Assembly (NCBI RefSeq): GCF_001936595.1
Contig: NZ_MLBG01000043.1
Span: 1-33,491 of the forward strand
Direction: 5' to 3'
Origin: Desulfovibrio sp. DV
GTDB lineage: Bacteria > Desulfobacterota > Desulfovibrionia > Desulfovibrionales > Desulfovibrionaceae
DNA: 33,491 bases
Below are positions 2,444 through 19,306 of this stretch, piece after piece. The stretch's first letter is position 1. Every line of letters starts with the position of its first letter. Under the pieces are notes generated by a model. The model did not search any database. It was not told the DNA's origin and saw only the letters and a list, made by a program, of their open reading frames with translations. The translations under genes and the position numbers were made by a program.

Positions 2444-2513
2444 GCCGGGGTCCGGGGGGATCATCCCCCCGGTGGGGTCCGGGGCAAAGCCCCGGCCGCC
2501 GGAGCATTCTTCC
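2444..2513 (-). repeat. 3' module variant with two GC hairpins
   Basis: Read on the minus strand, this begins 17 nt after the XRE stop with GGAAGAATGCTCCGGCGG, the box shared by the other modules. It carries two hairpins in place of the CCAAAGGG stem: 2479-2485 with 2489-2495 (loop AAA) and 2452-2460 with 2464-2472 (loop TCA). There is no T tract after either stem. Confidence 0.75.
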
Positions 2514-2530
2514 CGCATCATTTCAATATA

Positions 2531-2834
2531 TTACTTCTTCGCCTTGGTCTTTGCCGCCTGCAACAATTCCCACTTGATGCCGAGTACGGCAGCGACTTTT
2601 TTTCAGCGTGGCCGCGCGGGGCCGGGCGTTGCGGGCTTCGAGCTGGGTCACGGCGGCGGCGACCACGGACAAGCGCCGGCCGAGTTCCTCCCGGGTCACG
2701 CCCAGGTGTTCGCGCCAGGCCCGGATGGGCGAATGGCCTTCCCGCAGCAGCCAGGCCACTTCGCTTGGCAGGCCGGGTGTTTCCTGGTCGTCCGGCGCAC
2801 CGGCTGCCGTTTTCTCAGTCTCGTCTGTCGTCAT
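2531..2834 (-). pseudogene. XRE-family HTH regulator with frameshift at an A7 tract
   Basis: ATG 2834 is preceded by AAGGAG (2840-2845 on the complement), so a start near 3008 inside the repeats is not needed. The protein is about 100 residues and contains an XRE helix-turn-helix (WREHLGVTREELGRRLSVVAAAVTQLEARNARPR). At the run of seven A (complement of 2597-2603) the frame breaks. The unbroken frame ends in an unrelated tail stopping at 2523. Removing one A restores TLKKVAAVLGIKWELLQAAK and a stop at 2531-2533. That tail is the natural end of this small-regulator class. It could be a true inactivation, a phase-variable tract, transcriptional slippage or a sequencing error. Its DNA target is unknown. 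Confidence 0.75.
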
Positions 2835-2851
2835 ATCCGCTCCTTGGCTTG

Positions 2852-2956
2852 CGCCACTTTTGCTCATCGACCAGACAACGCGCCCGGTCAAATCAAACCA
2901 ACCCCAGGTGGGATTCCAAAGGGTATCATTCCCTTTGGCCGCCGAGGCATTCTTCC
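2852..2956 (-). repeat. Dispersed repeat copy A, about 105 bp
   Basis: This copy contains the stem CCAAAGGG (2916-2923) / CCCTTTGG (2931-2938) with a 7-nt loop, the CCTC-GGCGGC box and the GGAAGAATG edge at 2956. On the other side, an arm runs through CAAATCAAACC and CATCGACC. It is in tandem with copy B and lies just upstream of the XRE gene, so that gene's promoter must lie in or next to it. Confidence 0.85.
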
Positions 2957-2968
2957 CGTCTTTTCTGG

Positions 2969-3070
2969 CACCACTTTCGCGCATCGACCGGACAACGCGC
3001 CCGGTCAAATCAAGCCCCCCAAGTGGGATTCCAAAGGGCTCAGCCCTTTGGCCGCCGGAGGCATTCTTCC
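2969..3070 (-). repeat. Dispersed repeat copy B, about 102 bp
   Basis: The stem CCAAAGGGC (3031-3039) pairs with GCCCTTTGG (3043-3051) around a 3-nt loop. The copy is flanked by the CCTCCGGCGGC box, and its GGAAG edge lies 19 nt after the stop of the gene ending at 3090. Its distal arm matches copy A, including CATCGACC, GGACAACGCGCCC and GGTCAAATCAA. Confidence 0.9.
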
Positions 3071-3089
3071 TGCCTTCCTGCCTTTCTTT

Positions 3090-3995
3090 CTACAATGTCA
3101 CGCCGAAATCGTTTGCCAGCCGTGCGGCGGCTTCTTCCTCGCGCCGCCGGTACAGGGCGGGATCGCTCATGGCGGCGTGGCCGCCGATGTGGCGCATGGC
3201 GTCGTAGAGGTGAAAATGTCCGGCGGTGAAACCCAGGCGGTGGACGTCGTGGAACCACTCCGCCGCGGTGTCGAGGCCGTAGTCGCCGCAGTCGGTGATG
3301 GCTCCGAAGGGCACGGCCGGGCCGAAGGGGGCGGTCACCGGCCGGGCTTTGGCCAGATTGACCAGGCAGCACCATTCATTGACCCGGCATGGCGGCAGCG
3401 GCCAGGGTTCCTGGCGGTACTTTTCATTGAAATCGGTCAGGTGGAACGGGGCGCAGTACTGGCTGCCGGCAGCGGCGTGGGCGGCGTAGAGGGCGTAAAG
3501 CTCCGCATGGCTTGGCCGGTAGTCGAGATGGCGGGTGCTGTCGCAGACCCCGGCGTGGAAGGCCGGGCAGCCCTGGCAGGCCCCGAGGTGGCCGATGGCG
3601 ATGCGGTCGCCCAGGGCCTGAATCATGGGACCGACGACGTCGCCGAAAAATTCGCAGTCGTTGTGCAGGACCAGGACCAGCCGCTTGTCGCTTCGTTCCC
3701 AGCCATACTGGTAGCGAACCGACAAACGGATGTCGTCTTCGACATAGCGGGCCCGGTCCACGGTGCGTATCCAATGGCAGTAGGCCGGCTTGTGGACCAC
3801 CAGCCGCGCGCCGAGGCGCTCTTTGAGAAACTCGTACTTGCGCGCCTCGCCCGGCGGGGTGGCCGACTCCTCGTTGAAATAGATGGTCCCCAGGTACCGG
3901 CCGCTGTGGCGCAGCAGAGTGAGCAGGGTCAGGGTGGTCTGGCAGGGTTTGCCCAGGGCGTTTATGAGGACATCGACTTTTTCCGGTTTTTCCAT
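3090..3995 (-). CDS. Hypothetical protein, possibly glycosyltransferase-like
   Basis: The likely start is ATG 3995, with GGGAG about six bases upstream; GTG 4007 is in frame but lacks a well-spaced site. The product is 301 residues, soluble, and rich in Cys and His. The first third (VDVLINALGKP, later TIYFNEE) looks like the Rossmann-like opening of a family-2 type glycosyltransferase. LVLVLHNDCEFFG near residue 120 could stand where the DxD sugar-nucleotide motif lies. Motifs such as CQGCPAFHAGVC suggest metal or structural cysteines. No signal peptide or membrane helix is seen. It follows the DUF4239 gene by 15 nt and is probably co-transcribed. The glycosyltransferase idea is tentative; the coding call is strong. 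Confidence 0.7.
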   Translation of the reverse strand: MEKPEKVDVLINALGKPCQTTLTLLTLLRHSGRYLGTIYFNEESATPPGEARKYEFLKERLGARLVVHKPAYCHWIRTVDRARYVEDDIRLSVRYQYGWERSDKRLVLVLHNDCEFFGDVVGPMIQALGDRIAIGHLGACQGCPAFHAGVCDSTRHLDYRPSHAELYALYAAHAAAGSQYCAPFHLTDFNEKYRQEPWPLPPCRVNEWCCLVNLAKARPVTAPFGPAVPFGAITDCGDYGLDTAAEWFHDVHRLGFTAGHFHLYDAMRHIGGHAAMSDPALYRRREEEAAARLANDFGVTL

Positions 3996-4010
3996 GGCCG
4001 CTCCCACCCC

Positions 4011-4778
4011 TCACAATCCGCCCAAGGCCCGCATGGCCTCGGCGGCCTGGCTGAACTTGCCCGGGTCCAGGCAGATAACCCCGGAAAACGGGGTGTCCAA
4101 TTCGTAGAGCAAGAAGATGTTGCCGATGACCATGGCCAGGAGCATGACCATGAAATAGCGGTCTGCCGGCCGGTGTCCGGTCTCGATGAAGTAGAAACAA
4201 CCGATGGTGAAGGCCACCCCCATGTAAATGATGATCCAGATGGGCGTATAGAGGCTGCCGTCAATGAGCAGCAGGCGCTCGTGGCGCAGCTTGTTGAGGT
4301 CGATCATGCGGGACAACATCAGGGCGTAGATGGCGTGGCCGTGGCTGTCGGCCGGGGGATCGACAAGGCGCATCTGGTTCCAGACAGCGTCGTAGAGCGC
4401 CCCTGCGCCGTCGGTCGGTTCGCCGTCGCGCATCATGGCCCAACCCGGATCGCGCACCGCCTCGACATAGCGCAGCAGCGACTGGCGCAGGGCCTGGGTG
4501 CCCGGCAGGGCCTGGGACAGGCGGTACTCCACCACGAGCAGGTCGGTTTCGTTGGTAATGGCCGAATCCGCCCCGTTGTAGGTCTGCCACAGGGACACCA
4601 CGGCAAAGCCCAGGAAAAAGGTGTACAGGGTGGTAAAAAAACCGAAATTGGTGCCGAACAGATTGCGCTGTTCCAGGCTGAGCGAACAGGCCGCCCGCCG
4701 CCGGATGAAGCCAAGCAGCAAAAAGGCGGCCGCCACCGCAATGATGACGATGCCCAGATAGCGCAGATCGCTGTACAT
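4011..4778 (-). CDS. DUF4239-type integral membrane protein
   Basis: ATG 4778 follows a GGGGAG site. The 255-residue protein has a hydrophobic helix at about 7-24, a second at about 46-65 (FFTTLYTFFLGFAVVSL), and two closely spaced helices in the C-terminal third (IWIIIYMGVAFTIGCFYF and YFMVMLLAMVIGNIFLL). A roughly 100-residue hydrophilic central domain lies between them. That arrangement, and the GTNFGFFTTLYTFFLGFAVVSLW region, match DUF4239 proteins, which are sometimes described as bestrophin-like. No transport activity is proven for the family as far as I know. It lies in the inner membrane and forms a two-gene unit with the downstream hypothetical. An upstream terminator separates it from the secreted protein gene. 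Confidence 0.75.
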   Translation of the reverse strand: MYSDLRYLGIVIIAVAAAFLLLGFIRRRAACSLSLEQRNLFGTNFGFFTTLYTFFLGFAVVSLWQTYNGADSAITNETDLLVVEYRLSQALPGTQALRQSLLRYVEAVRDPGWAMMRDGEPTDGAGALYDAVWNQMRLVDPPADSHGHAIYALMLSRMIDLNKLRHERLLLIDGSLYTPIWIIIYMGVAFTIGCFYFIETGHRPADRYFMVMLLAMVIGNIFLLYELDTPFSGVICLDPGKFSQAAEAMRALGGL

Positions 4779-4854
4779 ACCCGCTCCCCTGAATCCGACC
4801 GATTGCGACGCCTGGCCCTGTGTTGCCGCCTTTGGCCCCGTGCGTCAACGGCGC

Positions 4855-4885
4855 AAAAAAGGCCGCCCGCCAACAGCGGGCGGCC
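4855..4885 (-). terminator. Intrinsic terminator after the secreted hypothetical gene
   Basis: On the minus strand, GGCCGCCCGC and GCGGGCGGCC (4876-4885 and 4861-4870) form a perfect 10-bp stem with a 5-nt loop. Six T follow (complement of 4855-4860). This ends the transcript of the gene whose stop is at 4913 and insulates the DUF4239 gene. Confidence 0.92.
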
Positions 4886-4912
4886 CAAAGAGCCGCAATG
4901 CGCCCGGTCCGC

Positions 4913-5776
4913 CTACTCCGGGCGCGCCCAGGTGGCGGCCACGAAGGGGGTGAAGCTGTCGTCGGCCTGACGGTACAGGTCAAGGGCGTCCCCTTCGGGA
5001 CCGGACCAGCGCACCGCCAGTTCCACCCCGCCGGGACCGCGAAAGGCAAACAACGGCCGGTAGGCTTCCAGGGAAAATTCGCCGCCGTCGTCCAGCCGCC
5101 AGGTGCCGCCCGGATCGGCGCTGCCCGGATATTCGAGATAGGCAGCCTTTCCTCCGGGGCCGTTGTAGGCCAGGACCACCAGCTCGTCGCGGCCGTGCGT
5201 GACAAACCGGGCCAGGGACAGCCGGCCGCCGTCGGACAGGCCCGCCACCTCGCGGCACCAGACGATCTCCCGCCCGATGCGCTGCAACAGGCCCTGGCGG
5301 GCCTCGTCGCCGCAGGCCTGCTCGCCGGTGGCCGGGGTCACGGCCAGCACTTCCCGTTCGGCCAGAAAGGCCTCGGTGGCCACCAGCACGTCGCTGCCCG
5401 GCTCCACGCCCTGGCTGGCGGCAAAGACCGCCCCGGGCATGTCGGTGAACCGGTTGGGCAGCTGGCCGGCTTCGGCCTCGGCCCCGTGCTGCGCCCCGGC
5501 ATAGGTCAGATCGACCACCCGGCCCGGCTCGGCCACGGCCTTGCGAAAATTCTTCATGCCCCGGGCCAGGGCCGTTTCCACCGGCACCAGCACCTGTCGG
5601 CCCGGCAGATCGGCATAGCCAAAGGCGCTGCCGGACAGCACCTGGTTGGCCTGCGGATCGTCGGCATGGTAATTGGCCTGGGCCATGGCGATCATTGAAA
5701 GGGTCAGAACCAGAACCGCAATGCCGCACGCAGCCCGCCAGGAAAGTCCCTGGCCGGACGTTGCCGCCTCACTCAT
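4913..5776 (-). CDS. Secreted hypothetical protein
   Basis: ATG 5776 has AGGAG at 5786-5790 on the complement. The 287-residue product starts with a short polar stretch, then a hydrophobic segment at about 14-32 (ACGIAVLVLTLSMIAMAQA). An AQA-N sequence could be a signal peptidase I site; otherwise the segment is a membrane anchor. The remainder is hydrophilic and beta-rich, with two cysteines (CGDE and VWCREV) about 20 residues apart that could form a disulfide in the periplasm. No catalytic motif is recognised. The gene is about 40 nt after the LysR gene in the same direction and has its own terminator. Function unknown. Confidence 0.7.
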   Translation of the reverse strand: MSEAATSGQGLSWRAACGIAVLVLTLSMIAMAQANYHADDPQANQVLSGSAFGYADLPGRQVLVPVETALARGMKNFRKAVAEPGRVVDLTYAGAQHGAEAEAGQLPNRFTDMPGAVFAASQGVEPGSDVLVATEAFLAEREVLAVTPATGEQACGDEARQGLLQRIGREIVWCREVAGLSDGGRLSLARFVTHGRDELVVLAYNGPGGKAAYLEYPGSADPGGTWRLDDGGEFSLEAYRPLFAFRGPGGVELAVRWSGPEGDALDLYRQADDSFTPFVAATWARPE

Positions 5777-5817
5777 GTCGTATTTCTCCTGCGCAGTGCA
5801 AATCCATCAGTCTTGCG

Positions 5818-6717
5818 TCAGCGATGCCGGTTCGGGAGTCCCCAGACTTCGGCCACAGCCGCCGACACAGCCTCAATAAGCCGATCCACCGCCCTCTCCC
5901 GGCGATAGACCAGCGACAATCCAAGAGTCATTCCCTGGCCGCACCACAGGCAGACCTCTCCGGCCGCCTGGGCGTCCAGGGCGTCGTCCCGGCGCAGCAG
6001 GGTGAGTCCCACACCGGCTGCCACCAGGGTGCGCAGGGTGGCGTCGTTGTCGCCCACCATGACCTTATTGAGCGGCAGGCCGCGGCAGGTAAACGACGCC
6101 TCAAGCAGATACTGGAACGGGCAGCGCTCGGAAAACCAGACCCACGGCAGCCCGGCCAGCTCGGCCCAGTCGGCCCGGCACACCCGCTCGGCCCAGGAGG
6201 TCGGCCCGACCACGGCCATGGGCACGTCTTCCAGGGGCACGGCCGCCACTTCATGGCCCGGCTCGATGATGTTGTCGTAGACAAACCCGATATCGAGCTT
6301 GCCCAGGCGCACATTGTCGAGGATGCGCGGCGAACTGGAATTGACCAGATGCAGCTCCACCCCGGGATGCCTCCGGGTCATGACCGAAAGCAATTCCGGC
6401 ACGCGCATCCGGGCGGCCTCGTTATTGAGCCCGATGCGGGCCACGCCGGTCACGTCCTGGCGCAATGCCCCGGCCCGCAGCCGCACGGCCTCGACGCTCG
6501 ACAAAGCCGCCTTGGCCTCGCCAAGCAGCGCCCGGCCCTCGGCGGTCAGCCGCATGCCTTTGGGCGTGCGCGAAAAAAGGGCCACCCCAAGCTCGTCTTC
6601 CAGGCTGCGGATATGGGCGCTCACCGCCGGCAGACTGGCGCTTAACCGCTCAGCCGCCCGGGTGAGGTGCTCCTCCTCGGCCACAGCCACAAACGTGCGC
6701 AGGTGATAATATTCCAC
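5818..6717 (-). CDS. LysR-family transcriptional regulator
   Basis: The start is GTG 6717, with GGAGGGG a few bases upstream. The 299-residue length is typical for LysR proteins. Residues 1-60 form the winged helix-turn-helix (LRTFVAVAEEEHLTRAAERLSASLPAVSAHIRSLEDELG, then LFSRTPKGMRLTAEG). The rest is the two-lobed periplasmic-binding-protein-like effector domain, including VARIGLNNEAARMRVPELL and GVGLTLLRRDD. A palindromic T-N11-A site lies 26 bp upstream between this gene and the divergent CxxC mini-protein gene, as usual for autoregulated LysR genes with a divergent target. The effector is not predictable from sequence. The secreted hypothetical gene downstream is probably co-transcribed. 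Confidence 0.92.
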   Translation of the reverse strand: MEYYHLRTFVAVAEEEHLTRAAERLSASLPAVSAHIRSLEDELGVALFSRTPKGMRLTAEGRALLGEAKAALSSVEAVRLRAGALRQDVTGVARIGLNNEAARMRVPELLSVMTRRHPGVELHLVNSSSPRILDNVRLGKLDIGFVYDNIIEPGHEVAAVPLEDVPMAVVGPTSWAERVCRADWAELAGLPWVWFSERCPFQYLLEASFTCRGLPLNKVMVGDNDATLRTLVAAGVGLTLLRRDDALDAQAAGEVCLWCGQGMTLGLSLVYRRERAVDRLIEAVSAAVAEVWGLPNRHR

Positions 6718-6742
6718 AACGCCCCTCCGGCGTCGCCAGTCT

Positions 6743-6759
6743 CTTCAGCCAGGCTGAAG
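6743..6759. promoter_or_regulatory. Candidate LysR operator palindrome
   Basis: CTTCAGCC-A-GGCTGAAG is a perfect 8-bp inverted repeat around one base and contains a T-N11-A core (T6745, A6757). A third half-site, CTTCAG, follows at 6765-6770. It lies in the divergent spacer between the LysR gene and the small gene at 6894, the classical place for a LysR recognition site. Confidence 0.65.
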
Positions 6760-6893
6760 GGCCGCTTCAGACATTGCGATTGGATGGCAAAGCCCGCAAC
6801 GCGCTACAACCCGCCCATAGCTCCACTGGCCGTATGGCACAGGGCCGACCTGTCGTAAAGGCCGGGCCGGAGTATGAAATGGAGGGAAAAACC

Positions 6894-7190
6894 ATGCCTG
6901 ATGTCAAGAAAATCGTTGCGGCCGGTGCGTTCGCCCTGGGCCTTCTCGCGATCTTCTTCCTGCAAATGCCGGCAGCCGGTCCGGCCTCGCCGCCTCCCCG
7001 GGGCGCGATGATCCCGGCCCGGGCCGATCTGGCCGAGGCGGTTTTTGCCATGGTGCTGGAAAACGCCACAAGCCAGGGGGTGGTCCTGTCCCAGCCGGTG
7101 ACGCTGTGCGAGGCCTGCGTGGCCGCCCACGTCGGCCTTCCCGGCGAGCGCGTGCGGGAACGCTGTGAGCGGGCCTGCGGGCTCAGATGA
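6894..7190 (+). CDS. Small membrane-anchored CxxC protein
   Basis: ATG 6894 has GGAGGG at 6881-6886. The upstream in-frame extension from 6774 has no ribosome site and covers the regulatory spacer. The 98-residue product has a hydrophobic segment at about residues 6-25 (VAAGAFALGLLAIFFLQM), then a Pro/Ala linker. A short C-terminal domain carries four cysteines: LCEAC and, about 20 residues on, RCERAC near the C-terminus. The paired cysteines could bind a metal or form disulfides outside the cytoplasm. I do not recognise a family. It is transcribed away from the LysR gene across the palindromic site, so it is the obvious candidate target of that regulator. Confidence 0.65.
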   Translation: MPDVKKIVAAGAFALGLLAIFFLQMPAAGPASPPPRGAMIPARADLAEAVFAMVLENATSQGVVLSQPVTLCEACVAAHVGLPGERVRERCERACGLR

Positions 7191-7200
7191 GGACAATATA

Positions 7201-7239
7201 AAGGCGGCCCCGATGCCCTACGACATCGAAACCGCCTTC
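7201..7239 (+). terminator. Possible weak terminator hairpin
   Basis: AAGGCGG (7201-7207) pairs with CCGCCTT (7233-7239), and inner CGATG/CATCG pairing is possible. It begins 10 nt after the CxxC gene stop. Only CTTCAC follows the stem, so there is no real T tract. It may act on both strands together with the adjacent repeat. Confidence 0.35.
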
Positions 7240-7245
7240 ACTGCT

Positions 7246-7303
7246 GCCCCCCAGGAGGGGATTCCAAAGGGACTCAGTCCCTTTGGCCGCCGGAGGCATC
7301 TTC
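7246..7303 (-). repeat. 3' module copy C, after topA
   Basis: The stem CCAAAGGGACT (7264-7274) pairs with AGTCCCTTTGG (7276-7286). It is extended by the ACT/AGT pairs relative to other copies, which is compensatory change in the stem. The CCTCCGGCGGC box and purine edge lie 37 nt after the topA stop, in the same orientation as topA. Confidence 0.9.
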
Positions 7304-7340
7304 TCTTTTCTTTTATCCTCTTCGCTCCAACCTTCCCGTC

Positions 7341-9605
7341 CTATTCCTCGCCTTCGCCCTCGTCCTTTTTGCCGACGCTGCGCTTGTAGCGGCAGGTCTT
7401 GGTGGGGCAGCTGATCAGTTCGCCGTCGCGGGTCTTTTTGCGCACCAGAATCTTGGAATCGCACTGGGGGCACGGCTCGTTTATGGGCCAGTCCCAGACC
7501 GCGAAGTCGCACTGGGGATAGGCGTCGCAGGCGTAAAACACCTTGCCGCGCTTGGAACTCTTTTCAACCAGCGTGCCGCTGCACCCTTCCCGGGGGCAGG
7601 CCACGCCGGTGGACAGGGGCTTGGTGTATTTGCAGTCCGGCCAGCCGGTGCAGGCAATGAACCGGCTGCCGGTGCGGGACTTTTTGACCACCAGATCCTT
7701 GCCGCAGGTGGGGCAGGGTCCGACCGAGGCCACTTCCTCGGCCTTGCGCTCCCGGGGCATGACCGCGCCGTCGGCGGCCCGGTCGAATTCCTTGGTGTTC
7801 TTGCAGTCCGGGTAGCCGGAGCAGCCCAGGAACTCGCCGGCCTTGCCAAAGCGGATGACCATGGGCTTGCCGCACAGTTCGCAGACGACGTCGGTTTCCT
7901 TGCCGGCCTTGACCTTGGCCATGTCTTTGCCGGCCTTGATCAGGGTGGGGTAGAAATCCTCGGTAAAGTCTTTAAGCAGCGTGACCCAGTCGGCCCGCCC
8001 TTCGGCCACGGCGTCCAGCGACGCTTCCATGCCGGCGGTGAAGCCCACGTCCATGATCTTGACGAAATGCTCGGCGAGCAGATCGGACACGGTCTCGCCA
8101 AGCTCGGAGGGCACGAAGTGCTTTTCCTCCAGCCGGGCATAGTCGCGGTCGATGAGGGTCGAGATGATGGCGGCATAGGTCGAGGGCCGGCCGATGCCTT
8201 TTTCTTCCAGTTCGCGCACCAGCGAGGCTTCGGAGTAGCGCGGCGGCGGCTGGGTGAATTTCTGTTCTTTTTTCAGCTCAAGGAGTGTGAGTTCCTGGTC
8301 CTTGACCAGCTTGGGCAGGGATTTGGCCTCGTCGCCGGCTTCCTGGCCGTAAACCTTCAGATAGCCGGGAAAGATGAGGCGCTGGCCCTTGGCCTTGAAA
8401 ATCCCGGGGCCGGCGGCGACGTCCACGGCCGTGTCCCAGAACCGGGCCTCGCTCATCTGGGAAGCCACGAAGCGTTCCCAAATGAGCTTGTAGAGCGTGA
8501 AAAGATCCTTGGGCAACAGCAGCTTGACGTCAGCCGGGGTCAGGGCGACATCAATGGGCCGGATGGCTTCGTGGGCGTCCTGGGCCCCGGCCTTGGACTT
8601 GAAGTGCCGCGCCTTCTCCGGGTAGTAGTCCGGGCCAAGGGTCTCGGTGATAAATTCCCTGGCCGCGTCCCGGGCCTCGTCCGCGATGCGGGTCGAGTCG
8701 GTACGCATGTAGGTGATAAGGGCCACAGTGCCCTTCTCGCCCAGTTCAAGGCCCTCGTAGAGCTTCTGGGCCGCGCCCATGGTGCGCTTGGCGGAATAGC
8801 CCAGGCGCTGGTTGGCGGCCTGCTGCAGGGTCGAGGTGATAAAGGGCGGCGGCGGCGACTTCTTGCGTTCCTTCTCCGTCACGGACGCAACGACAAACGG
8901 CTGGCCGGCGATGGCCGCCTCGGCCTCGGCCGCGGCCTCGGCGCTGCCGATCTCGACTTTCTTGCCCTTGTACTTGGCCAGCTCGGCCTCAAATTCCGGC
9001 GGCGCGTCTCCGGCCAGCCTGGCCTTGAAATTCCAGTATTCCACCGGCACAAAGGCCCGGCGCTCTTTTTCGCGGTCAACCACCAGCCGCAGGGCAACGG
9101 ATTGGACGCGGCCGGCCGAAATGCCGCTTTTCACCTTCTGCCACAGGATGGGCGACACCTTGTAGCCGACCAGCCGGTCGAGGATGCGCCGCGCCTGCTG
9201 CGATAAAAAAAGCTTTTCGTTGATTTCGCGCGGATGGGAAATGGCTTCACGAACGGCCTTGGCCGTAATTTCGTTAAACTGGATGCGGCAAATGGGGACG
9301 CCGGCATCCTTTAATATCTCGGCCACGTGCCAGGCAATGGCTTCCCCTTCGCGGTCGGGGTCGGGCGCGAGATAGATCTTGGAGGCTGAAGCGGCTGCTT
9401 CCTTGAGCCTGGAAACAACCTTCTGCTTGCCCGGAATGATTTGATATTGCGGCGCGAAATCGTCTTTTTCATCTACCCCGAGTTTTTTGGAGGGCAGATC
9501 ACGCACGTGACCAACCGAAGCTTCCACGGCATAGGCATTGCCGAGGAACTTCTTGATGGTCTTTACCTTGGCCGGCGACTCGACGATAATAAGGTCCTTT
9601 CCCAT
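7341..9605 (-). CDS. topA: DNA topoisomerase I (type IA)
   Basis: Relaxes negative supercoils through a transient 5'-phosphotyrosine link. ATG 9605 opens MGKDLIIVESPAKVKTI, the standard TopA N-terminus, so an in-frame TTG at 9638 is not favoured. No strong Shine-Dalgarno is visible. The 754-residue protein has a Toprim domain (VESPAK and APDPDREGEAIAWH near residue 80-93) and the catalytic Tyr299 in ALITYMRTDST. The C-terminus has about four Cys4 zinc ribbons: CELCGKP...CSGYPDC, CPTCGKD...CTGWPDC, CPREGC...CDAYPQC and CPQC...CPTKTC. Length and domain order are normal. It is transcribed divergently from era. Copy C of the 3' module follows the stop, with no T-tract terminator. Confidence 0.97.
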   Translation of the reverse strand: MGKDLIIVESPAKVKTIKKFLGNAYAVEASVGHVRDLPSKKLGVDEKDDFAPQYQIIPGKQKVVSRLKEAAASASKIYLAPDPDREGEAIAWHVAEILKDAGVPICRIQFNEITAKAVREAISHPREINEKLFLSQQARRILDRLVGYKVSPILWQKVKSGISAGRVQSVALRLVVDREKERRAFVPVEYWNFKARLAGDAPPEFEAELAKYKGKKVEIGSAEAAAEAEAAIAGQPFVVASVTEKERKKSPPPPFITSTLQQAANQRLGYSAKRTMGAAQKLYEGLELGEKGTVALITYMRTDSTRIADEARDAAREFITETLGPDYYPEKARHFKSKAGAQDAHEAIRPIDVALTPADVKLLLPKDLFTLYKLIWERFVASQMSEARFWDTAVDVAAGPGIFKAKGQRLIFPGYLKVYGQEAGDEAKSLPKLVKDQELTLLELKKEQKFTQPPPRYSEASLVRELEEKGIGRPSTYAAIISTLIDRDYARLEEKHFVPSELGETVSDLLAEHFVKIMDVGFTAGMEASLDAVAEGRADWVTLLKDFTEDFYPTLIKAGKDMAKVKAGKETDVVCELCGKPMVIRFGKAGEFLGCSGYPDCKNTKEFDRAADGAVMPRERKAEEVASVGPCPTCGKDLVVKKSRTGSRFIACTGWPDCKYTKPLSTGVACPREGCSGTLVEKSSKRGKVFYACDAYPQCDFAVWDWPINEPCPQCDSKILVRKKTRDGELISCPTKTCRYKRSVGKKDEGEGEE

Positions 9606-10668: not shown

Positions 10669-10686
10669 GAGGCAGGAAGACGGAAG

Positions 10687-10742
10687 GCAGGAAGCAGGAA
10701 GCAGGGAGCAGGAAGCAGGAAGCAGGAAGCAGGAAGCAGGAA
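10687..10742 (+). repeat. Heptamer tandem repeat, eight GCAGGAA units
   Basis: There are eight consecutive 7-bp units, seven exact GCAGGAA and one GCAGGGA (10701-10707). Degenerate copies precede from about 10671. It begins 18 nt after the era stop and runs straight into copy D of the 3' module, whose edge is the same AGGAAG sequence. It looks like an expansion of that edge. Confidence 0.95.
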
Positions 10743-10842
10743 GAGTGCCTCCGGCGGCCAAAGGGCTGAGCCCTTTGGAATCCCACCTGGGGTTGGTTTG
10801 ATTTGACCGCGTGCGTTGTTCGGTCGATGCGCGAGGGTGGAG
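10739..10842 (+). repeat. Dispersed repeat copy D, about 104 bp
   Basis: GGAAGAGTGCCTCCGGCGGC is followed by the stem CCAAAGGGC (10758-10766) / GCCCTTTGG (10770-10778). A distal arm runs through CCACCTGGGGTTGG, TTTGATTTGACC and CGGTCGATGCGCG. It matches the complement of copies A and B over the whole length and lies in the sense orientation of era. Confidence 0.9.
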
Positions 10843-10854
10843 TTAAGATTAAAT

Positions 10855-10930
10855 CTCCGGCGGACAAAGGGAATGATACTCTTTGGAATCCCACCTGGGG
10901 TCGATTTATTTTGTAATTATGCGCGTGGTA
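10855..10930 (+). repeat. Dispersed repeat copy E, degenerate
   Basis: This copy keeps CTCCGGCGG, CAAAGGG, CTTTGG and AATCCCACCTGGGG in the right order, but several stem pairs are lost and the distal arm is divergent and AT-richer. It is in tandem with copy D, about 12 bp apart, mirroring the A/B pair at 2852-3070. Confidence 0.75.
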
Positions 10931-11654: not shown

Positions 11655-11668
11655 CCCCTGGAGGCACC

Positions 11669-13213: not shown

Positions 13214-13967
13214 CCGCGCCGGCGTTCTCTGCGGGCTGGCCGGGTTGGCGCTTCTCGTCGTGCCGGTCCTGGCCCTGGCCCAGGACATCCCGCCGTCCCT
13301 GACCCTGTCGCTGGCCGCCGGCCAGAACCAGCCCGAACGTGTCTCCACGCTGCTTGAAATCCTTTTTGCCCTGACCGTCCTGTCGCTGGCCCCGTCCTTT
13401 ATCCTGACGGTGACCTCGTTTACCCGGATCATCGTGGTGTTTTCGTTTCTGCGCCAGGCCATGGGCGTGCAGCAGGTGCCGCCGACCCAGATTCTGGCCA
13501 GCCTGGCCCTCTTCCTGACGGCGGTCATCATGTACCCGACCGGCAAGCAGATCAACGACAATGCCCTGCAACCGTACCTGGAAGAGCGGATCGGCTTCAC
13601 CGAGGCCCTGAAAAAGGCCGAAATTCCCATGCGGGAATTTCTGTTCAAGCACACCCGGGAAAAAGACCTGTCCGTCTTTTACACCATCACCAAGATGGAG
13701 CGGCCCAAGGACAAGGCCGAGGTCCCCACCACCATGCTGGCGGCCGGCTTCATGATCAGCGAGCTCAAGACCGCCTTTACCATCGGCTTTCTCATCTACA
13801 TCCCGTTTCTCATCCTCGACATGGTCATTTCCAGCATCCTTTTGGCCATGGGCATGATGATGCTGCCGCCGGCCACCATTGCCATGCCGTTTAAGCTGTT
13901 GTTGTTCGTTCTCGTAGATGGTTGGGGGCTTTTGGTGGCCTCCCTGGTCAACTCATTTGCAACCTGA
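13203..13967 (+). CDS. fliP: Flagellar type III export gate protein FliP
   Basis: ATG 13203 overlaps the end of fliO by 11 nt. The 254-residue protein begins with a cleavable-type signal sequence (LCGLAGLALLVVPVLALAQD), as usual for FliP. The FliP signature follows (SFTRIIVVFSFLRQAMGVQQVPPTQILASLALFLTAVIMYP). The C-terminal half has membrane segments with ISELKTAFTIGFLIYIPFLILDMVISSILLAMGMMMLPP. With FliQ and FliR it builds the helical export gate inside the MS ring. The gene is 14 nt upstream of fliQ. Confidence 0.97.
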   Translation: MRLSRAGVLCGLAGLALLVVPVLALAQDIPPSLTLSLAAGQNQPERVSTLLEILFALTVLSLAPSFILTVTSFTRIIVVFSFLRQAMGVQQVPPTQILASLALFLTAVIMYPTGKQINDNALQPYLEERIGFTEALKKAEIPMREFLFKHTREKDLSVFYTITKMERPKDKAEVPTTMLAAGFMISELKTAFTIGFLIYIPFLILDMVISSILLAMGMMMLPPATIAMPFKLLLFVLVDGWGLLVASLVNSFAT

Positions 13968-13981
13968 GGAGGGGCAAGCCC

Positions 13982-14254
13982 ATGACGACTGACATGGTGG
14001 TGGCGCTGTCGCGACAGGCCATCGAACTGGCGCTGTTCCTGGCTATGCCCATGCTCGGGGTGAGCCTTGTGGTGGGTGTGTTCGTGTCGGTGCTGCAGGC
14101 GGCGACCCAGATTCAGGAAATGACCCTGACCTTTGTGCCGAAGATCCTGTCCATGTTCATTGCCCTGCTGCTGGCCTTCCCCTGGATGATGGACAAGATG
14201 CTGAGCTTCACCCGGGAGCTTTTCATGAACATCCCGATGTACCTGCGCGGATAA
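13982..14254 (+). CDS. fliQ: Flagellar export gate protein FliQ
   Basis: ATG 13982 follows GAGGAGGGG. The 90-residue product has two membrane helices, about 16-41 and 52-74, joined by the short QAATQIQEMTLTFVPK loop that is diagnostic for FliQ and type III SctS proteins. It is the last gene of this flagellar run. fliR, flhB and flhA, which often follow, are not present; the next gene is on the opposite strand. The transcript end is probably the GC hairpin at 14304-14328. Confidence 0.95.
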   Translation: MTTDMVVALSRQAIELALFLAMPMLGVSLVVGVFVSVLQAATQIQEMTLTFVPKILSMFIALLLAFPWMMDKMLSFTRELFMNIPMYLRG

Positions 14255-14303
14255 TTTTCTCCTCCGCCACAGCCTTCACTCCGTCCCCTTTCCCCTTTGG
14301 GGG

Positions 14304-14328
14304 GTCCGGGGGCCCGAGGCCCCCGGAC
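14304..14328. terminator. Perfect 11-bp GC hairpin after fliQ
   Basis: GTCCGGGGGCC (14304-14314) and GGCCCCCGGAC (14318-14328) pair around the loop CGA. There is no T tract on either side, so it is not a canonical intrinsic terminator. It could slow RNA polymerase or protect 3' ends of the two converging transcripts. The stem resembles the hairpins at 2452-2495. Confidence 0.55.
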
Positions 14329-14403
14329 GCCGAAGCAACGGTCCCCCCGCAAGTTTTCCTGCGCAACTGCCACTCACCGGCTCGGCAAAACCCATGGCCA
14401 AAG

Positions 14404-14453
14404 AGGTGGGTTTCCAAAGGGCACTGCCCTTTGGCCGCCGGAGGCATTCTTCC
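14404..14453 (-). repeat. 3' module copy F, after the TIM-barrel gene
   Basis: The stem CCAAAGGGC (14414-14422) pairs with GCCCTTTGG (14426-14434) around ACT. The CCTCCGGCGGC box and GGAAGAATG edge lie 41 nt after the stop at 14495, in the gene's orientation. The long distal arm of copies A, B and D is absent here. Confidence 0.9.
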
Positions 14454-14494
14454 TCTTCTCTCTCGCTCACTCCCCCGCTTCCTCCACTACACCC

Positions 14495-15316
14495 CTATTC
14501 GTTGTCGAAATAGTCCGGCCGCGACCGGACAAAGGCCAGGGCGGCCTCGAAGGCTTGGGGCGTGTGGGGCTCGAAGGTGGCGGTTGGGGTCAGGCGGCGG
14601 GCGGCGAGACCGGCCAGGAGGGCGTCAAAGGGGATTTCCCCCTGGCCCGGGCCGAGGTGCTGGTCAAAGGTGCCGTCGTTGTCGTGGAGATGCAGGTGGA
14701 GCAGCGAGGGGGTCAGGGCGTCGAGCCAGGCATCGAGGTTGCCGCGCGCCTTGCCCTCGGCAAAGCTGTACCAATGGCCGACGTCAAAGCAGGAGCCGAT
14801 GCGCGCCGCGGCCTGCGGGGCCATCCTCTGGCGCAGGATGTCCACGGCTTCGGCCAGGGTGGCCGGGTCGGTCTCGAAGGTGTTTTCCAGGCAAAGCGGC
14901 GCATGATCGGGCCAGGCGGCCAGCACCGTGGCCCAGGTGTCGGCGGCGCGCCTGGCCCAGTCGGCAAAGGAGCGGATGTAGAGGAAGCGGTTGTAGGCGG
15001 CGTGGCCGACCATGCGCCTGGGCGCGTACAGGGCGGCGATATCCAGGGCGCTGCGCAGCCGGTCGCAGCTGGCGGCCCGGATGCGGGCATCGGCACTGCC
15101 GGGCTGGAGATCGAAAAAGGGCAGATGCACGGTGGCGGCCACGCCGGCGTCGGCAAAGCGCCGGGCTGTCTCCCGGTGCCAGTCGGCGGTGGTGGCGTCC
15201 AGGAGCAGCGGATCGAGGCCGATTTCCACGGGCAACCCGGTGGCCAGATGGCGCTCAAACAGCTCGGGATGGGCCTTGGCCACCCGAAGATTCAAATTGA
15301 CGAAATACCGGGGCAT
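14495..15316 (-). CDS. Sugar-phosphate isomerase/epimerase-type TIM-barrel protein
   Basis: The probable start is ATG 15316, 10 nt after the stop of the anchor gene; the Shine-Dalgarno is weak. An in-frame upstream start at 15358 would overlap that gene by 32 nt. The 273-residue product fits the xylose-isomerase-like TIM-barrel (AP endonuclease 2) family. Likely metal ligands are Glu in LCLENTFE, Asp/His in CFDVGHWYS, His/Asp in LLHLHLHDNDG, and Glu in TFEPH; HLGPGQGEIPF is also characteristic. The family contains isomerases, epimerases and endonucleases IV, so the substrate cannot be named. No signal peptide is present. It is the last gene of the pyrE-headed operon. Confidence 0.8.
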   Translation of the reverse strand: MPRYFVNLNLRVAKAHPELFERHLATGLPVEIGLDPLLLDATTADWHRETARRFADAGVAATVHLPFFDLQPGSADARIRAASCDRLRSALDIAALYAPRRMVGHAAYNRFLYIRSFADWARRAADTWATVLAAWPDHAPLCLENTFETDPATLAEAVDILRQRMAPQAAARIGSCFDVGHWYSFAEGKARGNLDAWLDALTPSLLHLHLHDNDGTFDQHLGPGQGEIPFDALLAGLAARRLTPTATFEPHTPQAFEAALAFVRSRPDYFDNE

Positions 15317-15326
15317 GGCAGGCCGG

Positions 15327-16082
15327 CTAGTCCTTTTGCACGGGATAGACCTGGGCAAAGACCGGCTTGCCGGCCGGATCGACGATGACCAGGCGCAGGC
15401 CGTAGATGTCGCGGGGATCGATCTTGGCCGGCAGCGGCAGGATGGCGGCGATCTGCTTGAAGCGCTGGATCTGGAAGGACAGTTCGTCCTTTTCGGCCTT
15501 AAGCGGCCACAGCGTGCCGTCGTTGCCCAAAAGGGCCACTTCGACCTTGCCGACCAGCCCGGTCTGCGGGGTCACATTGCTGAGGTCAAAGCCCAGGCTC
15601 AGGCGGCGGTTGTCGAATTTGATCTTGAGATTGTCCACGCCGGCCTGATTGGCGTCCACCCGGGCCAGCACCCTGGACAGATCCGGGCGTTCCCTGGCGG
15701 ATTCGGCCGCAGCGGCCGGGGCCGGTTCCTTGCGATCCTCGGCCCGTGGCTTCCACCAGCCGGGATTGTCGGGATTATACGAACCAAGCAGCGTTTCCAG
15801 TTCGGTCAGATCCTTGGAGCGCAGGGTGCGTTCCAGGTTTTCCAGCCGCAGCAGGCCCTCGCCGGCCGCGTCAATCTCCTGGCGCACGGCAGCGGCCTGG
15901 TCGGTCAGGGCCTTGTTGTCCTGGTGCAGGTGGTAGGCCACGGCCACGGCCGCGCCAAGGAGCAGCAGAAAGGCGACGGGCGCAAGCACGAGCAACCGCA
16001 ACAGCCAGACCGGCAGGCGGTAGCGGCCGACACCCGAGGCATCCCGCAAAATAAGGATGTCGATCCTGCCGCTTCCGGCCAT
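15327..16082 (-). CDS. Single-pass membrane protein with coiled-coil stalk
   Basis: ATG 16082 overlaps the TAA of the transpeptidase gene (TAATG), with GGAG nine bases upstream; a start 15 bases earlier is possible. The 251-residue product has a short basic cytoplasmic N-terminus and one helix at about 26-49 (LLRLLVLAPVAFLLLLGAAVAVAYHL). A predicted coiled coil of about 35 residues follows (NKALTDQAAAVRQEIDAAGEGLLRLENLERTL), then a Pro/Ala segment. The C-terminal globular domain of about 110 residues contains LKIKFDNRRLSLGFDLSNVTPQTGLVGKVEVALLG. I do not recognise the domain. One-base overlap with the transpeptidase suggests the two act together in the periplasm. Confidence 0.78.
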   Translation of the reverse strand: MAGSGRIDILILRDASGVGRYRLPVWLLRLLVLAPVAFLLLLGAAVAVAYHLHQDNKALTDQAAAVRQEIDAAGEGLLRLENLERTLRSKDLTELETLLGSYNPDNPGWWKPRAEDRKEPAPAAAAESARERPDLSRVLARVDANQAGVDNLKIKFDNRRLSLGFDLSNVTPQTGLVGKVEVALLGNDGTLWPLKAEKDELSFQIQRFKQIAAILPLPAKIDPRDIYGLRLVIVDPAGKPVFAQVYPVQKD

Positions 16083-18451
16083 TACATACGGCTCCATTTT
16101 TCTTCGACGATGGAGAACCCATTTCCGGCCGGCGCGAGATAGAGCGTCTTTTTGCCCCGGTCCGCAGTGCCGTCGCGGCTTTCGTAGTCCTGGACAAAGG
16201 TGACCACAAAACCGCCCTGGCGGGGTGTGATCTTCACGTCGGAGAAGGCCACCTTGCGCGGGGCCTTGTCCTTCCACAGATCGGCCTTCTGGCTGCGGAT
16301 GGACTCGCGGCCGCGGCGGTCGCCCTGGAGAGCGGCGTCGGCGTAAAAAGAAGCGTATTCCGTGACCCGGCCACGTTCCCAGGCCGCCCGCCAGGCTTCG
16401 ACCATGGCAGCCGCGGCGGCGGTGCGTTCGGCCTTCTGGGCCTGGGCGGTATCGGCCGGACGCGGGGCCGGGACAGCCGCAGCCTGGGCCGCCTGGACCG
16501 GGGGCACCGGGGCAGGCGTGGCCTGGACCGGGACAGGTGTGGCCGGCTGGGCCGGGGCTGGTGGCGCGGCCGCCACGTTCGCTCCCCGGGCCGGCGGGGC
16601 CAAAGCGGGCGCGGCCGGGGCCGAAGCAACAACAGCCGCCGTAGCGGCCGGGGCCGCGGCAAGGACCGAAACCGGGGCCGTCTCGGGCCGGTTTTTGGAC
16701 CAGCGTTCCTTGGCAATAAGCAGTTTGCCGCCGGCGGGAGTCAGGGCCAGGGTCTTGAAGCCGGCGCTGTCCTTGCCGGCTCCCTTGCCCTGGTAATGCA
16801 TGGCGCACACCACGGAGTAGCCGTCGCCGTCCGGGGCAACAGCCAGGACGTCCATGACGACGCGGCCCGGCTCACGGCCCTGCCACAGGCCGGATTTCTG
16901 GCGTCGGATGGCGTCCTTGCCCTTGAGGTTCCCCTGGACGGCCCCGTCGGCGTAATGGGCCAGATAGTCGTCGAGACGCCCGCGTTCCCAGGCGGTTCTC
17001 CAGGCCTCCACCACAGCCTTTATTTCGCCGACCCGCTCGGCCGGGACCGGGGCGGCAGCCACGGCGGCGAGAGCCGGTTGCAAAGCCTTGGCCGGGACAA
17101 CCGGCGCGGCGGCCACCGCAGCCGGGGCGGCTGGTGGGGCGGCAACCGGCGCAGCGGCCGGGACCGGCTCGGCCGGGGCAATCGGTGCAGCCTTGGCCGC
17201 GGCCTGGGCAATCTGGACCGGAGCGGCCACTGCCGCGGGAGCGGCCGGCGCTGCGGCAACCGGCGGGGCCGGGGGCGCGACCTTCACGGCGTCGGAGGCA
17301 AAGGGCGAAACCCCGGGCTTGGCCGGGCCGGTCTGGGCCACTTCCAGGATGGCTTGGTCTTCAGGCGTGGGCTGGCGGGTCAGCGGCAGGGAGTGGAAGG
17401 CCTTCTGGGCCATCTTCTCCATGGCCGCCTGATGGGCGTCCACCAGCAAGCGGCCCGGCCCTTCCTCTTCGCTGGGGGCATCGGGACGGGTGGTATTGGT
17501 TTCGGCCTCGTTGGCCAGGGCCACGGTCTTGGCCGCCTTGCCCTTCTCGGCCACGGTCAGCGGCGCTTCCTCGTATTCCATGCCGATGATGCGAAACCGG
17601 CCGTCGAGGCCGCGCTGCCAGTACAGGCGCTTGACGCCCTGGGAAATGAGCGTTGGCGAGCGATAGACCTGGACAAAAAAAGTGACCCAGTAGTCGGGTC
17701 CGGGCAGGGCGCGGATGTCGGAAAGCGTCACCTGGATCCAGGGCAGGGACTTGAACAGGCGTTCCTTCTGGCCGCGAAAGGCGGCAAAGGGCTGGCCTTC
17801 GGAAATGGCGAACTTTTCGGCGTCGTGGAAGCCGAAAAAGGCGTCGGAACGGTCCTGCCAGGCCTTGGCCCAGCCCTGGGTGGCTTCCACCACTTCCCGG
17901 GCTTCGGCTTTGAGCCGGGCGGCGTCGCCTTCCAGACGCAGTTCGTCGGCGATGATGACCGGCGTGCCCAGGGCCAGTTCGTTGTCCAGGCGGTGGAGAT
18001 CGGGCGTGTTGATGGCCACGCAGCCCTGGGTCTCGTAGGGGATGATGGCGTGGCCCCGGCCGTGAATCCAGATGCCGTGCCCGGTTTTGCGGCGCACCAC
18101 ATCGGCCGGGTTGGGGAAATTGAGCGGAAAGGCCAAATCGCCGTACAGTTCGTAATTAAGCCCCCCGGTCTTGCGCCGGGTGATGAAATAGACGCCTTCC
18201 GGGGTCCTGAGGTCGCCTTCCTTGCTCTTGTCGCCAAGCAACTGGCCGGTGGCGCAGGGGAGGAACTCGGCCACGCGCACCGGGCTTTGCCGCGACAGCA
18301 GGAAAAAGGACTGGGCCTTTTTATCCACGGCCACCGAGCGCCTGGGGAACCACTCCGTGTCCACCACGTCGGCCGTCCATTCCCCGGCCGCCGGATGGCC
18401 GGGAAGCAGAAGCAGGCAGGCGAGAACCAGGGCGTGGCCGATTCGTTTCAT
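16082..18451 (-). CDS. Csd6-like L,D-transpeptidase with three NTF2-like domains
   Basis: The start is ATG 18451, 11 nt after the pyrE stop. The 789-residue protein has a signal peptide (1-22) and a YkuD catalytic domain at about 30-185. WIHGRGHAIIPYETQGCVAIN holds catalytic His130 and Cys144. An NTF2-like domain at about 185-297 gives the same order as Csd6, a Helicobacter cell-shape L,D-carboxypeptidase. Two further NTF2-like domains at about 472-588 and 676-789 are clearly duplicates of each other (VEAWRTAWERGRLDDYLAHYAD and VEAWRAAWERGRVTEYASFYAD). Long Ala/Pro linkers at about 300-470 and 589-675 separate them. It probably trims or cross-links peptidoglycan stem peptides in the periplasm; which of the two is unproven. 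Confidence 0.87.
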   Translation of the reverse strand: MKRIGHALVLACLLLLPGHPAAGEWTADVVDTEWFPRRSVAVDKKAQSFFLLSRQSPVRVAEFLPCATGQLLGDKSKEGDLRTPEGVYFITRRKTGGLNYELYGDLAFPLNFPNPADVVRRKTGHGIWIHGRGHAIIPYETQGCVAINTPDLHRLDNELALGTPVIIADELRLEGDAARLKAEAREVVEATQGWAKAWQDRSDAFFGFHDAEKFAISEGQPFAAFRGQKERLFKSLPWIQVTLSDIRALPGPDYWVTFFVQVYRSPTLISQGVKRLYWQRGLDGRFRIIGMEYEEAPLTVAEKGKAAKTVALANEAETNTTRPDAPSEEEGPGRLLVDAHQAAMEKMAQKAFHSLPLTRQPTPEDQAILEVAQTGPAKPGVSPFASDAVKVAPPAPPVAAAPAAPAAVAAPVQIAQAAAKAAPIAPAEPVPAAAPVAAPPAAPAAVAAAPVVPAKALQPALAAVAAAPVPAERVGEIKAVVEAWRTAWERGRLDDYLAHYADGAVQGNLKGKDAIRRQKSGLWQGREPGRVVMDVLAVAPDGDGYSVVCAMHYQGKGAGKDSAGFKTLALTPAGGKLLIAKERWSKNRPETAPVSVLAAAPAATAAVVASAPAAPALAPPARGANVAAAPPAPAQPATPVPVQATPAPVPPVQAAQAAAVPAPRPADTAQAQKAERTAAAAAMVEAWRAAWERGRVTEYASFYADAALQGDRRGRESIRSQKADLWKDKAPRKVAFSDVKITPRQGGFVVTFVQDYESRDGTADRGKKTLYLAPAGNGFSIVEEKWSRM

Positions 18452-18462
18452 GCAGTCTCGCG

Positions 18463-19059
18463 TCAGGAGGCCGGTTGCTGGTTGGCAGCACAGAGGAGCG
18501 CTTCGCGGGTGAAAACGGACAGCAGCGGAAAGCCGCGTTCGGCCAGCTTTTCAGACCCGCCCTCGCCCCGATCAAGGACCGTGACCACGGCCCCGACCAC
18601 CAGACCGGCGGCTTCAACCCGGTCGATGACGGTCAGCAGCGTGCCACCGGTGGTGACCACGTCTTCGAGCAGGGCCACCTTGTCGCCGGGCTTGAAGTTG
18701 GACAGGCCTTCCAGGAACTGGTTGGTGCCGTGGCCCTTGGAGGCCTTGCGCACGATAAAGGCCGGCATGGGCTTCCCGCGCAGATGGGAGGCGATGGAGA
18801 CGGCCGTGACCAGCGGGTCGGCCCCGAGGGTCATGCCGCCGACGCCGACAATGTCGGCCGGCAACTGGTCAAAAAGCAGGTTGCCGATGAGCCAGGCCCC
18901 TTCGGGGTGTAGCGCCGTCTGTTTGCAGTCGAAATAATAATCGCTCTTGCGGCCCGAAGTCAGGGTCACTTCGCCGGCGCGGTAGGATTTCTCAAGGAGC
19001 AGGCGGGCCAGACGGCCGCGCATGGCTCCGGCGTCCAGATCAAGGGAAGCACACGACAT
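18463..19059 (-). CDS. pyrE: Orotate phosphoribosyltransferase
   Basis: Converts orotate and PRPP to orotidine 5'-phosphate in pyrimidine synthesis, in the cytoplasm. I favour ATG 19059 (198 residues, MSCASLD); an in-frame ATG at 19080 gives 205 residues, and neither has a strong ribosome site. The PRPP-binding motif VALLEDVVTTGGTLLTVID is intact. The lysine-rich catalytic loop (FIVRKASKGHGTNQFLEG) and the N-terminal TLTSGRKSDYYFDCK substrate region are typical of PyrE. It heads a four-gene minus-strand unit with cell-envelope genes, which is an unusual partner set. No terminator separates it from the transpeptidase gene. Confidence 0.95.
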   Translation of the reverse strand: MSCASLDLDAGAMRGRLARLLLEKSYRAGEVTLTSGRKSDYYFDCKQTALHPEGAWLIGNLLFDQLPADIVGVGGMTLGADPLVTAVSIASHLRGKPMPAFIVRKASKGHGTNQFLEGLSNFKPGDKVALLEDVVTTGGTLLTVIDRVEAAGLVVGAVVTVLDRGEGGSEKLAERGFPLLSVFTREALLCAANQQPAS

Positions 19060-19255
19060 GAAAATCCCCGTTTCGCCCATTTGCCTTTGGCATACAAAAG
19101 CCGGGCGTTTTTGGAAAGTGGTTCGTTATCGGTCGGGCTGGCGTTGCGCCTATGCAATCAAACCAATTGATTTCGCAGCCCAGCCCTGAAATCTTTTTCC
19201 ATCGGCAGCGACCATCCCCATGGCGGGATGTCCGGCGCAACTCCCACCCACTGTC

Positions 19256-19306
19256 ACCCAGGTGGGATTGCCAAGGGCTCAGCCTTGCCGCCGGAGGCAT
19301 CTTCCT
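19256..19306 (-). repeat. 3' module copy G, after purB, degenerate stem
   Basis: On the minus strand, GGAAGATGCCTCCGGCGGC is followed by AAGGCTGAGCCCTTGG and AATCCCACCTGGGTGAC. The left arm has lost bases, so only a bulged CAAGG/CCTTG pairing remains. It begins 10 nt after the purB stop. The rest of the spacer to pyrE (19081-19255) shows no gene. Confidence 0.8.

Follow-up and report, generated by a model that had tools for sequence, protein, structure and literature searches.

Synthetic DNA triplexes composed of a hairpin plus a third strand were reportedly described by Sklenar and Feigon in 1990, and triplex motifs of Escherichia coli are said to have been the subject of earlier work by Hoyne and Maher. 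In passages of Holder et al. 2015 (PMC4666352), the PIT/boxC/TM_ECO elements of E. coli and its relatives are described as short intergenic repeats with an intrastrand triplex motif, which, according to the same passages and the earlier work cited there, show neither strand bias nor terminator activity. A second group of repeats, the REP/BIME elements, is described together with RAYT transposases in parts of two further papers (PMC3733652, PMC2817692). The module reported here has its closest kin in the PIT/boxC/TM_ECO repeats. No published description of it was found in the accessible text of open-licence papers, and Desulfovibrio goes unmentioned in the main texts of PMC3733652 and PMC2267715.

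The window, a 33,491-nt stretch of Desulfovibrio sp. DV, belongs to the studied genome (G000, a Solidesulfovibrio, 4.85 Mb). Read in the sense direction of the preceding gene, the module consists of a purine-rich spacer after the stop codon, a 10-nt box, CCTCCGGCGG, that hardly varies, then a hairpin and, last, a tail of A plus a C-rich stretch. In intact copies the stem opens with CC and closes with GG; the box is followed by CC, a purine arm, a short loop, a pyrimidine arm and GG, after which come A and a pyrimidine tail. The features in the window are as follows, with the evidence for each in brackets.

2447..2505, minus strand: module after the XRE gene, with box GCTCCGGCGG at 2496-2505, hairpin at 2479-2495 and tail at 2474-2478 (sequence, box distance, fold)
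Hairpin 2452-2472 and tail 2447-2451, minus strand: second tandem unit of the XRE-gene module (sequence)
2910..2947, minus strand: second unit downstream of the 3090 gene, with box at 2939-2947, hairpin with a 7-nt loop at 2916-2938 and tail at 2910-2915 (sequence, repeat families D1, I1 and I3)
3025..3061, minus strand: module after the 3090 gene, with box at 3052-3061, hairpin at 3031-3051 and tail at 3025-3030 (sequence)
7258..7296, minus strand: module after topA, with box at 7287-7296, hairpin at 7264-7286 and tail at 7258-7263 (sequence, orthologous sites)
10669..10747, plus strand: purine-rich spacer from the era stop to the box (sequence, purine enrichment of such spacers)
10748..10784, plus strand: module after era, with box at 10748-10757, hairpin at 10758-10778 and tail at 10779-10784 (sequence, orthologous sites)
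10854..10892, plus strand: second unit after era, with box TCTCCGGCGG at 10854-10863, hairpin at 10864-10886 and tail at 10887-10892 (sequence)
14408..14444, minus strand: module after the TIM-barrel gene, with box at 14435-14444, hairpin at 14414-14434 and tail at 14408-14413 (sequence)
19264..19297, minus strand: module after purB, with box at 19288-19297, a short degenerate stem at about 19272-19287 and tail at 19264-19269 (sequence, fold, relatives)

All eight copies listed by an earlier, sequence-only reading of this DNA were found where it had placed them. Those at 2852-2956 and 10855-10930 are second units lying further downstream, and the 'GC hairpin' copy at 2447-2505 is an ordinary module with a different, G-type stem and two hairpin-plus-tail units in tandem. 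The distance from stop to box is 17 nt for the XRE gene, 28 for the 3090 gene, 44 for topA, 79 for era, 50 for the TIM-barrel gene and 19 for purB. The box at 2939-2947 lacks one G, and the stem of the purB copy is shortened and partly degenerate, folding no better than its own shuffles (z +0.85); four other folded copies gave z of -1.7 to -3.3 against shuffles. Pfam matches were obtained for topA, era, the xylose-isomerase-like TIM barrel, purB and fliP, the helix-turn-helix match of the XRE gene is weak and under the Pfam cut-off, and the 3090 gene had no Pfam match. The same reading knew of no established name for the element, in keeping with a search of the window with 4227 Rfam families, which gave no match at gathering score. 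The purine spacer after era (10669-10747) contains GCAGGAA 7-nt repeats in tandem, and the topA spacer differs in length between close relatives (44 nt in G009, 11 nt in G005), which together suggest slippage. A downstream sub-family, starting GGGAACCACCGTT-GCTCCGGCGG, is found about 100-160 nt past a first module; it is represented at 10854 on the plus strand and on stretches C17, C30 and C12 of the placement sample described below.

That the element is a dispersed repeat is borne out across the genome, where the 18-mer CCTCCGGCGGCCAAAGGG, with up to 2 mismatches allowed, occurs at 151 sites (67 and 84 on the two strands) against 2 (1+1) for the reversed control, and CCTCCGGCGGCCRRRGG in 262 copies (126+136) against none. 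Placement was assessed in a 786-kb sample that includes the window, using genes called with a self-trained codon model and defining a module as a box with at most 1 mismatch plus a hairpin. The 67 modules found in this way comprise 27 in convergent regions, 27 co-directional sense, 6 co-directional antisense, 1 divergent, 5 genic (2 of which resemble chance hairpins) and 1 at an edge. Both the skew between convergent and divergent regions (p=6e-9, given 52 and 80 such regions of at least 100 nt) and that between sense and antisense co-directional copies (p=3e-4) uphold, for this genome, the proposed tie to stop codons and to strand. Altogether, 54/67 modules lie downstream of a stop codon in the sense direction, with a median of 37.5 nt from stop to box, and the 20 nt upstream of the box are 87% purine, compared with 47% at 237 gene ends that have no module. 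ATG or GTG stands directly before the box in 34 of the 54 sense modules (ATG 22, GTG 12), with the purine tract ahead of it resembling a Shine-Dalgarno sequence; in the window such a triplet lies at 10745-10747 on the plus strand, after era.

The module shares with PIT/boxC/TM_ECO a hairpin plus a third segment with triplex potential, an intergenic position, tens to more than 100 copies per genome and variation between close relatives. It differs in its layout, which is mostly R-loop-Y-GGA-Y, whereas the PIT/boxC/TM_ECO consensus is Y-loop-R-N3-R (CCCTCNCCC N3-6 GGGNGAGGG N3 GGGNGAGGG), and it adds a constant CCTCCGGCGG box, many exchangeable stems, a purine leader and, in the studied genome, sense placement after stops. 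It resembles REP/BIME elements in being a short, extragenic, palindromic, high-copy repeat (61 of the 67 sample modules are intergenic) that is at times tandem, but no GTAG or CGTC tag was seen in it, and it shows no link to PF01797, the REP-associated Y1 transposase, and possesses a tail that mirrors its stem. PF01797 was found 0 times in G206, G205, G208, G011, G143, G144 and G200, and G000 has only one match, weak and with an internal stop (C9:20040-20267); mobilisation by RAYT/IS200 was rejected, PF01797 not being associated.

The stem co-varies. Among 64 same-length modules, two-sided changes were observed at 9/9 stem pairs and the covariation score was reached in 0/500 shuffles. This alignment, A1, retains 64 of 72 references (8 were removed by eye), the 72 being limited to at most 3 per hairpin and taken from 85 preselected for at least 7 of 9 pairable positions, and the figure of 97% paired cells is inflated by that preselection. 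In stems with exactly one non-Watson-Crick pair on the sense strand, A.C outnumbers G.U by 14 to 5 (p=0.06) under symmetric scoring, a biased scheme having given G.U 12 and A.C 5. An A.C pair on the sense strand corresponds to G.T on the opposite strand. The A.C excess, together with an orientation that is specific to lineage, speaks against a sense-RNA hairpin as the sole selected form. The sequence-only reading was right that the stem is kept while its sequence changes; its proposal of selection on RNA structure in particular is no more than tentative.

The tail, listed by the same reading just as AATCCCACC, is indeed present, and it behaves as a mirrored third strand. Followed outward from the closing GG, it takes up the sequence of the 3' arm again and is its mirror image, as in CCTCTCCT-GG-ACCTCTCC, CCCTCT-GG-ACTCCC and CCCCCTCCC-GG-ACCCTCCC; put another way, it complements the purine 5' arm in parallel orientation, A occupying the first place. 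For AAAGGG stems the mirror fit is less full (tails AATCCC or AAACCC). Over 58 distinct, though phylogenetically non-independent, 3' arms from box-bearing modules the mirror match was 0.749, compared with 0.501 (sd 0.020) when tails were permuted among arms, a value reached in 0/10,000 permutations; a third segment in mirror relation to an arm is a feature shared with the PIT/boxC/TM_ECO elements. The G-run length of the arm tracks the C-run length of the tail (rho 0.67, n=186). Origin of the tail as a direct repeat was rejected, being far weaker than the mirror rule (0.486 vs 0.434, 66/10,000) and not significant in another test (632/5,000). Taken by group, with arms that are distinct though phylogenetically non-independent, the mirror rule gave 0/5,000 in each of Solidesulfovibrio (28 arms), Oscillibacter (10 arms) and a mixed set (22 arms), and 1/5,000 in the remaining loci that match the full A-type pattern (18 arms); it was not significant in D16-76 (6 arms, 815/5,000) or Selenomonadaceae (4 arms, 3705/5,000), and the Alphaproteobacteria set was too small. 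At three re-read places with a mutated 5' arm (L337, L343, L346), the tail keeps following the 3' arm. Some Oscillibacter copies are colour-reversed, running from a pyrimidine arm through a purine arm to a purine tail; this is the Y-R-R order of the E. coli repeats, with another sequence.

An advance prediction, covering 30 loci, was that AGAGG arms would be followed by ACTCC tails and GGAGG arms by ACCTCC tails. Of 27 AGAGG places, 20 have ACTCC, one ACTCT (which mirrors its own 3' arm), one CCTCC and one ACACC, and four lack a clean hairpin. ACCTCC was found at 0/3 GGAGG places, two having ACTCC that mirrors their own 3' arm and one lacking a clean stem (ACCCC follows, by eye). The prediction is only weakly confirmed, since near-identical copies from just two genomes, G206 and G212, make up 18 of the 27 places, and those of G206 had been seen beforehand. 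Loci of G212 such as L335, L338 and L341 (near position 1500) carry a second hairpin inside the loop of an AGAGGG hairpin, with the outer tail ACTCCC retained. After the TIM-barrel ortholog of G011 lie box-less tandem hairpins, each with its own stem and a matching tail (GGGG/CCCC, GGGA/CCCT, AGGG/ACCC).

Repeats that arise from copying errors are direct or inverted, never mirror. As a third strand in the major groove demands mirror symmetry, and copying errors do not yield it, the module is read as an intrastrand-triplex design in which the tail is the putative third strand. The likeness to synthetic triplexes and H-DNA mirror repeats lies in the R-loop-Y-linker-Y order on one strand and the mirror symmetry; the module differs from them in being natural, dispersed and box-bearing. 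Within the major groove the tail would run parallel to the purine arm, and the antisense strand could form a matching purine-motif triplex. C-rich pyrimidine triplexes require protonated C. The strand polarities used here for the triplex follow Holder et al. 2015 (PMC4666352).

Orthologous gene ends of G000 and G008 agree strongly in whether a module is present (9/10 vs 4/41, p=2e-6, omitting the false module C43|2 and tight gene pairs with a gap of up to 20 nt). The type of stem is another matter, the first six bases agreeing in 7 of 26 pairs of G000 with a relative at shared sites (13 genes), where 5.8 are expected by permutation and 937/2,000 permutations reach the observed value. By these computations, module sites persist between species and stems are reshuffled. 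After topA, for example, the arms following CC read AAAGGGAC, GGGGGGA, GGGGAGA, GGGGGCC, AGGAGGGGCC and GGGGGGGA across species. G005 and G009, two closely related genomes, have most of their stems in common, with a few swaps and one extra hairpin unit between box and stem. Stem dialects are clear between genera and weak within the genus: sharing within genomes is 0.29-0.49 (0.18 in G009), and between Solidesulfovibrio genomes 0.26-0.49. Sense modules separate fliP from fliQ in G005 and G009; the corresponding gap is 14-18 nt in G000, G001, G006, G008 and G011, and G003 has a 130-nt gap with another module.

Across the order, CCTCCGGCGGCCRRRGG was matched in 88/199 genomes, copy number being 86-266 in the nine members of the genus that were drawn and never above 1 per genome outside the family; the repeat family is dense in Desulfovibrionaceae, with patchy counts within. 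The full A-type pattern occurs, among the matches listed, in Fundidesulfovibrio, Pseudodesulfovibrio, Desulfocurvus, Selenomonadaceae, Oscillibacter, Alphaproteobacteria and bacterium D16-76, lineage labels being those of the depositors, with some records MAGs and D16-76 unclassified at NCBI. Copies of CCTCCGGCGGCCNRRGG in genomes with the last four labels number 30 in Selenomonadaceae, 193 in Oscillibacter, 59 in Alphaproteobacteria and 20 in D16-76, with controls of 0 or 1, and flanks are apparently unrelated among the 31 loci examined across labelled phyla. The placement seen in the studied genome does not extend to an Oscillibacter genome, where copies bear no such relation to stops or strand (20 sense, 18 antisense, 7 convergent, 6 divergent and 6 genic box sites in 260 kb). 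Scatter regardless of stops and strand, which the sequence-only reading named as refuting its view, is not the case in the studied genome but would be in that one. In a Selenomonadaceae MAG, 6/7 co-directional copies are antisense, all six lying 20-44 nt from a called start codon; placement rows for D16-76 include overlapping loci that are counted twice. Carriage on plasmids was set aside after megablast with one 47-nt module gave no match, in a search from which records near the studied genome may be missing, and a phage origin was rejected, the full A-type pattern being found on 1 viral contig. On that contig (L239:734-768, plus strand) the module lies shortly past an open frame ending near 726.

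In common with intrinsic (Rho-independent) terminators, the module presents a GC-rich hairpin shortly past the stop codon in the sense direction; it differs in its fixed box, its tail of A plus a C-rich stretch and its lack of a T tract, none of the 54 sense modules of the sample having 4 or more T in the 8 nt after the hairpin. This agrees with the earlier reading, as do the two genes whose stops lie at 2039 and 4913, which in sequence do have true hairpin plus T-run terminators. Of the gene ends followed by a gap of 100 nt or more, classed by the box pattern alone with no hairpin demanded, a T-tract hairpin starting at most 60 nt from the stop was present at 5/56 module ends vs 66/237 others (p=0.003, one of three distance limits tried; 40, 60 and 90 nt gave p=0.001, 0.003 and 0.035). 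A scan of about 250 nt revealed no depletion (20/56 vs 109/237, p=0.18), so that the depletion is confined to the first tens of bases. At the purB end, a module lies 16-45 nt past the stop in seven inner-clade genomes (one cut by a contig end), and in seven outer-clade genomes of the genus there is none within 230 nt, several having a hairpin plus T run. Single swaps between module and T tract occur in both directions at other ends (e.g. C12|40, C12|31, C15|25, C15|19). T-tract ends among module-less orthologs are not clearly enriched (7/24 vs 20/101, with the false module call C43|2 and tight gene pairs with a gap of up to 20 nt dropped; one of the 7, era in G009, is a doubtful T call).

The family is real, very abundant and apparently undescribed, and in the studied Solidesulfovibrio genome its sequence placement ties it to transcript ends. 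That it is a triplex-type repeat family is judged highly probable. A role at transcript ends in Desulfovibrionaceae, which the depletion of T-tract terminators near the stop at module ends supports, is put at about even, and the explanation as a whole, a triplex-hairpin repeat family with such a role, is held to be evenly poised. Under it, a triple helix would form in RNA or DNA, and copies would be re-templated through exchange between copies; in Desulfovibrionaceae, the structure behind its purine-rich leader may stall RNA polymerase or block 3' exonucleases, thereby marking the transcript end and replacing the T-tract terminator. Termination or protection by the module is plausible. Counting against the explanation, besides the points held against a simple RNA terminator below, are the loss of the T-tract depletion over about 250 nt, the lack of clear T-tract enrichment among module-less orthologs, the non-significance of the mirror rule in D16-76 and Selenomonadaceae, the missing terminator activity of the E. 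coli kin and the need of C-rich pyrimidine triplexes for protonated C. A simple RNA terminator is disfavoured by the excess of A.C over G.U, the lineage-dependent orientation and the copy between fliP and fliQ. A hairpin in sense RNA of the plain intrinsic-terminator or 3'-stabiliser kind, with no third strand and with box and tail incidental, would account for the sense placement, the near-perfect stems with two-sided changes and the T-tract depletion, but is improbable given the mirror-wise match of tail to stem, the near-constancy of the box from one labelled phylum to another and the excess of A.C over G.U.

The most serious rival, less probable than the triplex-hairpin reading and still only a tentative candidate, is a selfish DNA repeat of the REP or MITE kind that would serve the host in no way, whose copies would be tolerated at gene ends and whose box end tends to lie near a coding region. 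It is favoured by the unrelated flanks across labelled phyla, the hundreds of copies with patchy counts within the family, the mixed orientation in Oscillibacter and the start-proximal antisense copies of Selenomonadaceae; the extra hairpin unit lodged after the box, the nested hairpin of G212 and the modules that open the era-yggS and fliP-fliQ junctions point the same way. It is harder to reconcile with the strong sense bias in the studied genome, the depletion of nearby T-tract terminators, the retention of sites between species and the failure to find a mobilising enzyme, PF01797 being absent from copy-rich G206, G011, G143, G144 and G200 and broken in G000. Somewhat more doubtful is a new class of transcript 3' end in Desulfovibrionaceae, in which a hairpin would close the mRNA, or the DNA strand behind the polymerase, its tail would fold back and the triplex would serve as terminator or exonuclease cap instead of a U-tract, within an exchangeable CCTCCGGCGG-box cassette that gut Bacillota would carry elsewhere. 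A mini-ORF or reinitiation site, in which the purine tract would serve as a Shine-Dalgarno sequence to an ATG or GTG at the box, is very improbable: the 34/54 sense modules that have such a codon favour it, but stem lengths shift by 1-2 nt regardless of frame, and other triplets (TCG, GGG, ACG and others) precede the box in other lineages. A peptide encoded by such a frame was provisionally rejected because the frame changes with stem length.

Returning to the triplex-hairpin reading, the mirror-wise co-variation of three segments across dozens of stem types is evidence, of the comparative kind, that the capacity to form an intrastrand triplex is maintained in natural sequences, a question that work on the E. 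coli elements had left undecided. With 262 copies of one pattern, a constant box and a placement after stop codons, structure and function are directly testable in culturable Solidesulfovibrio. The annotation of transcript ends in the family, where many gene ends have no recognisable T-tract terminator, would also benefit.
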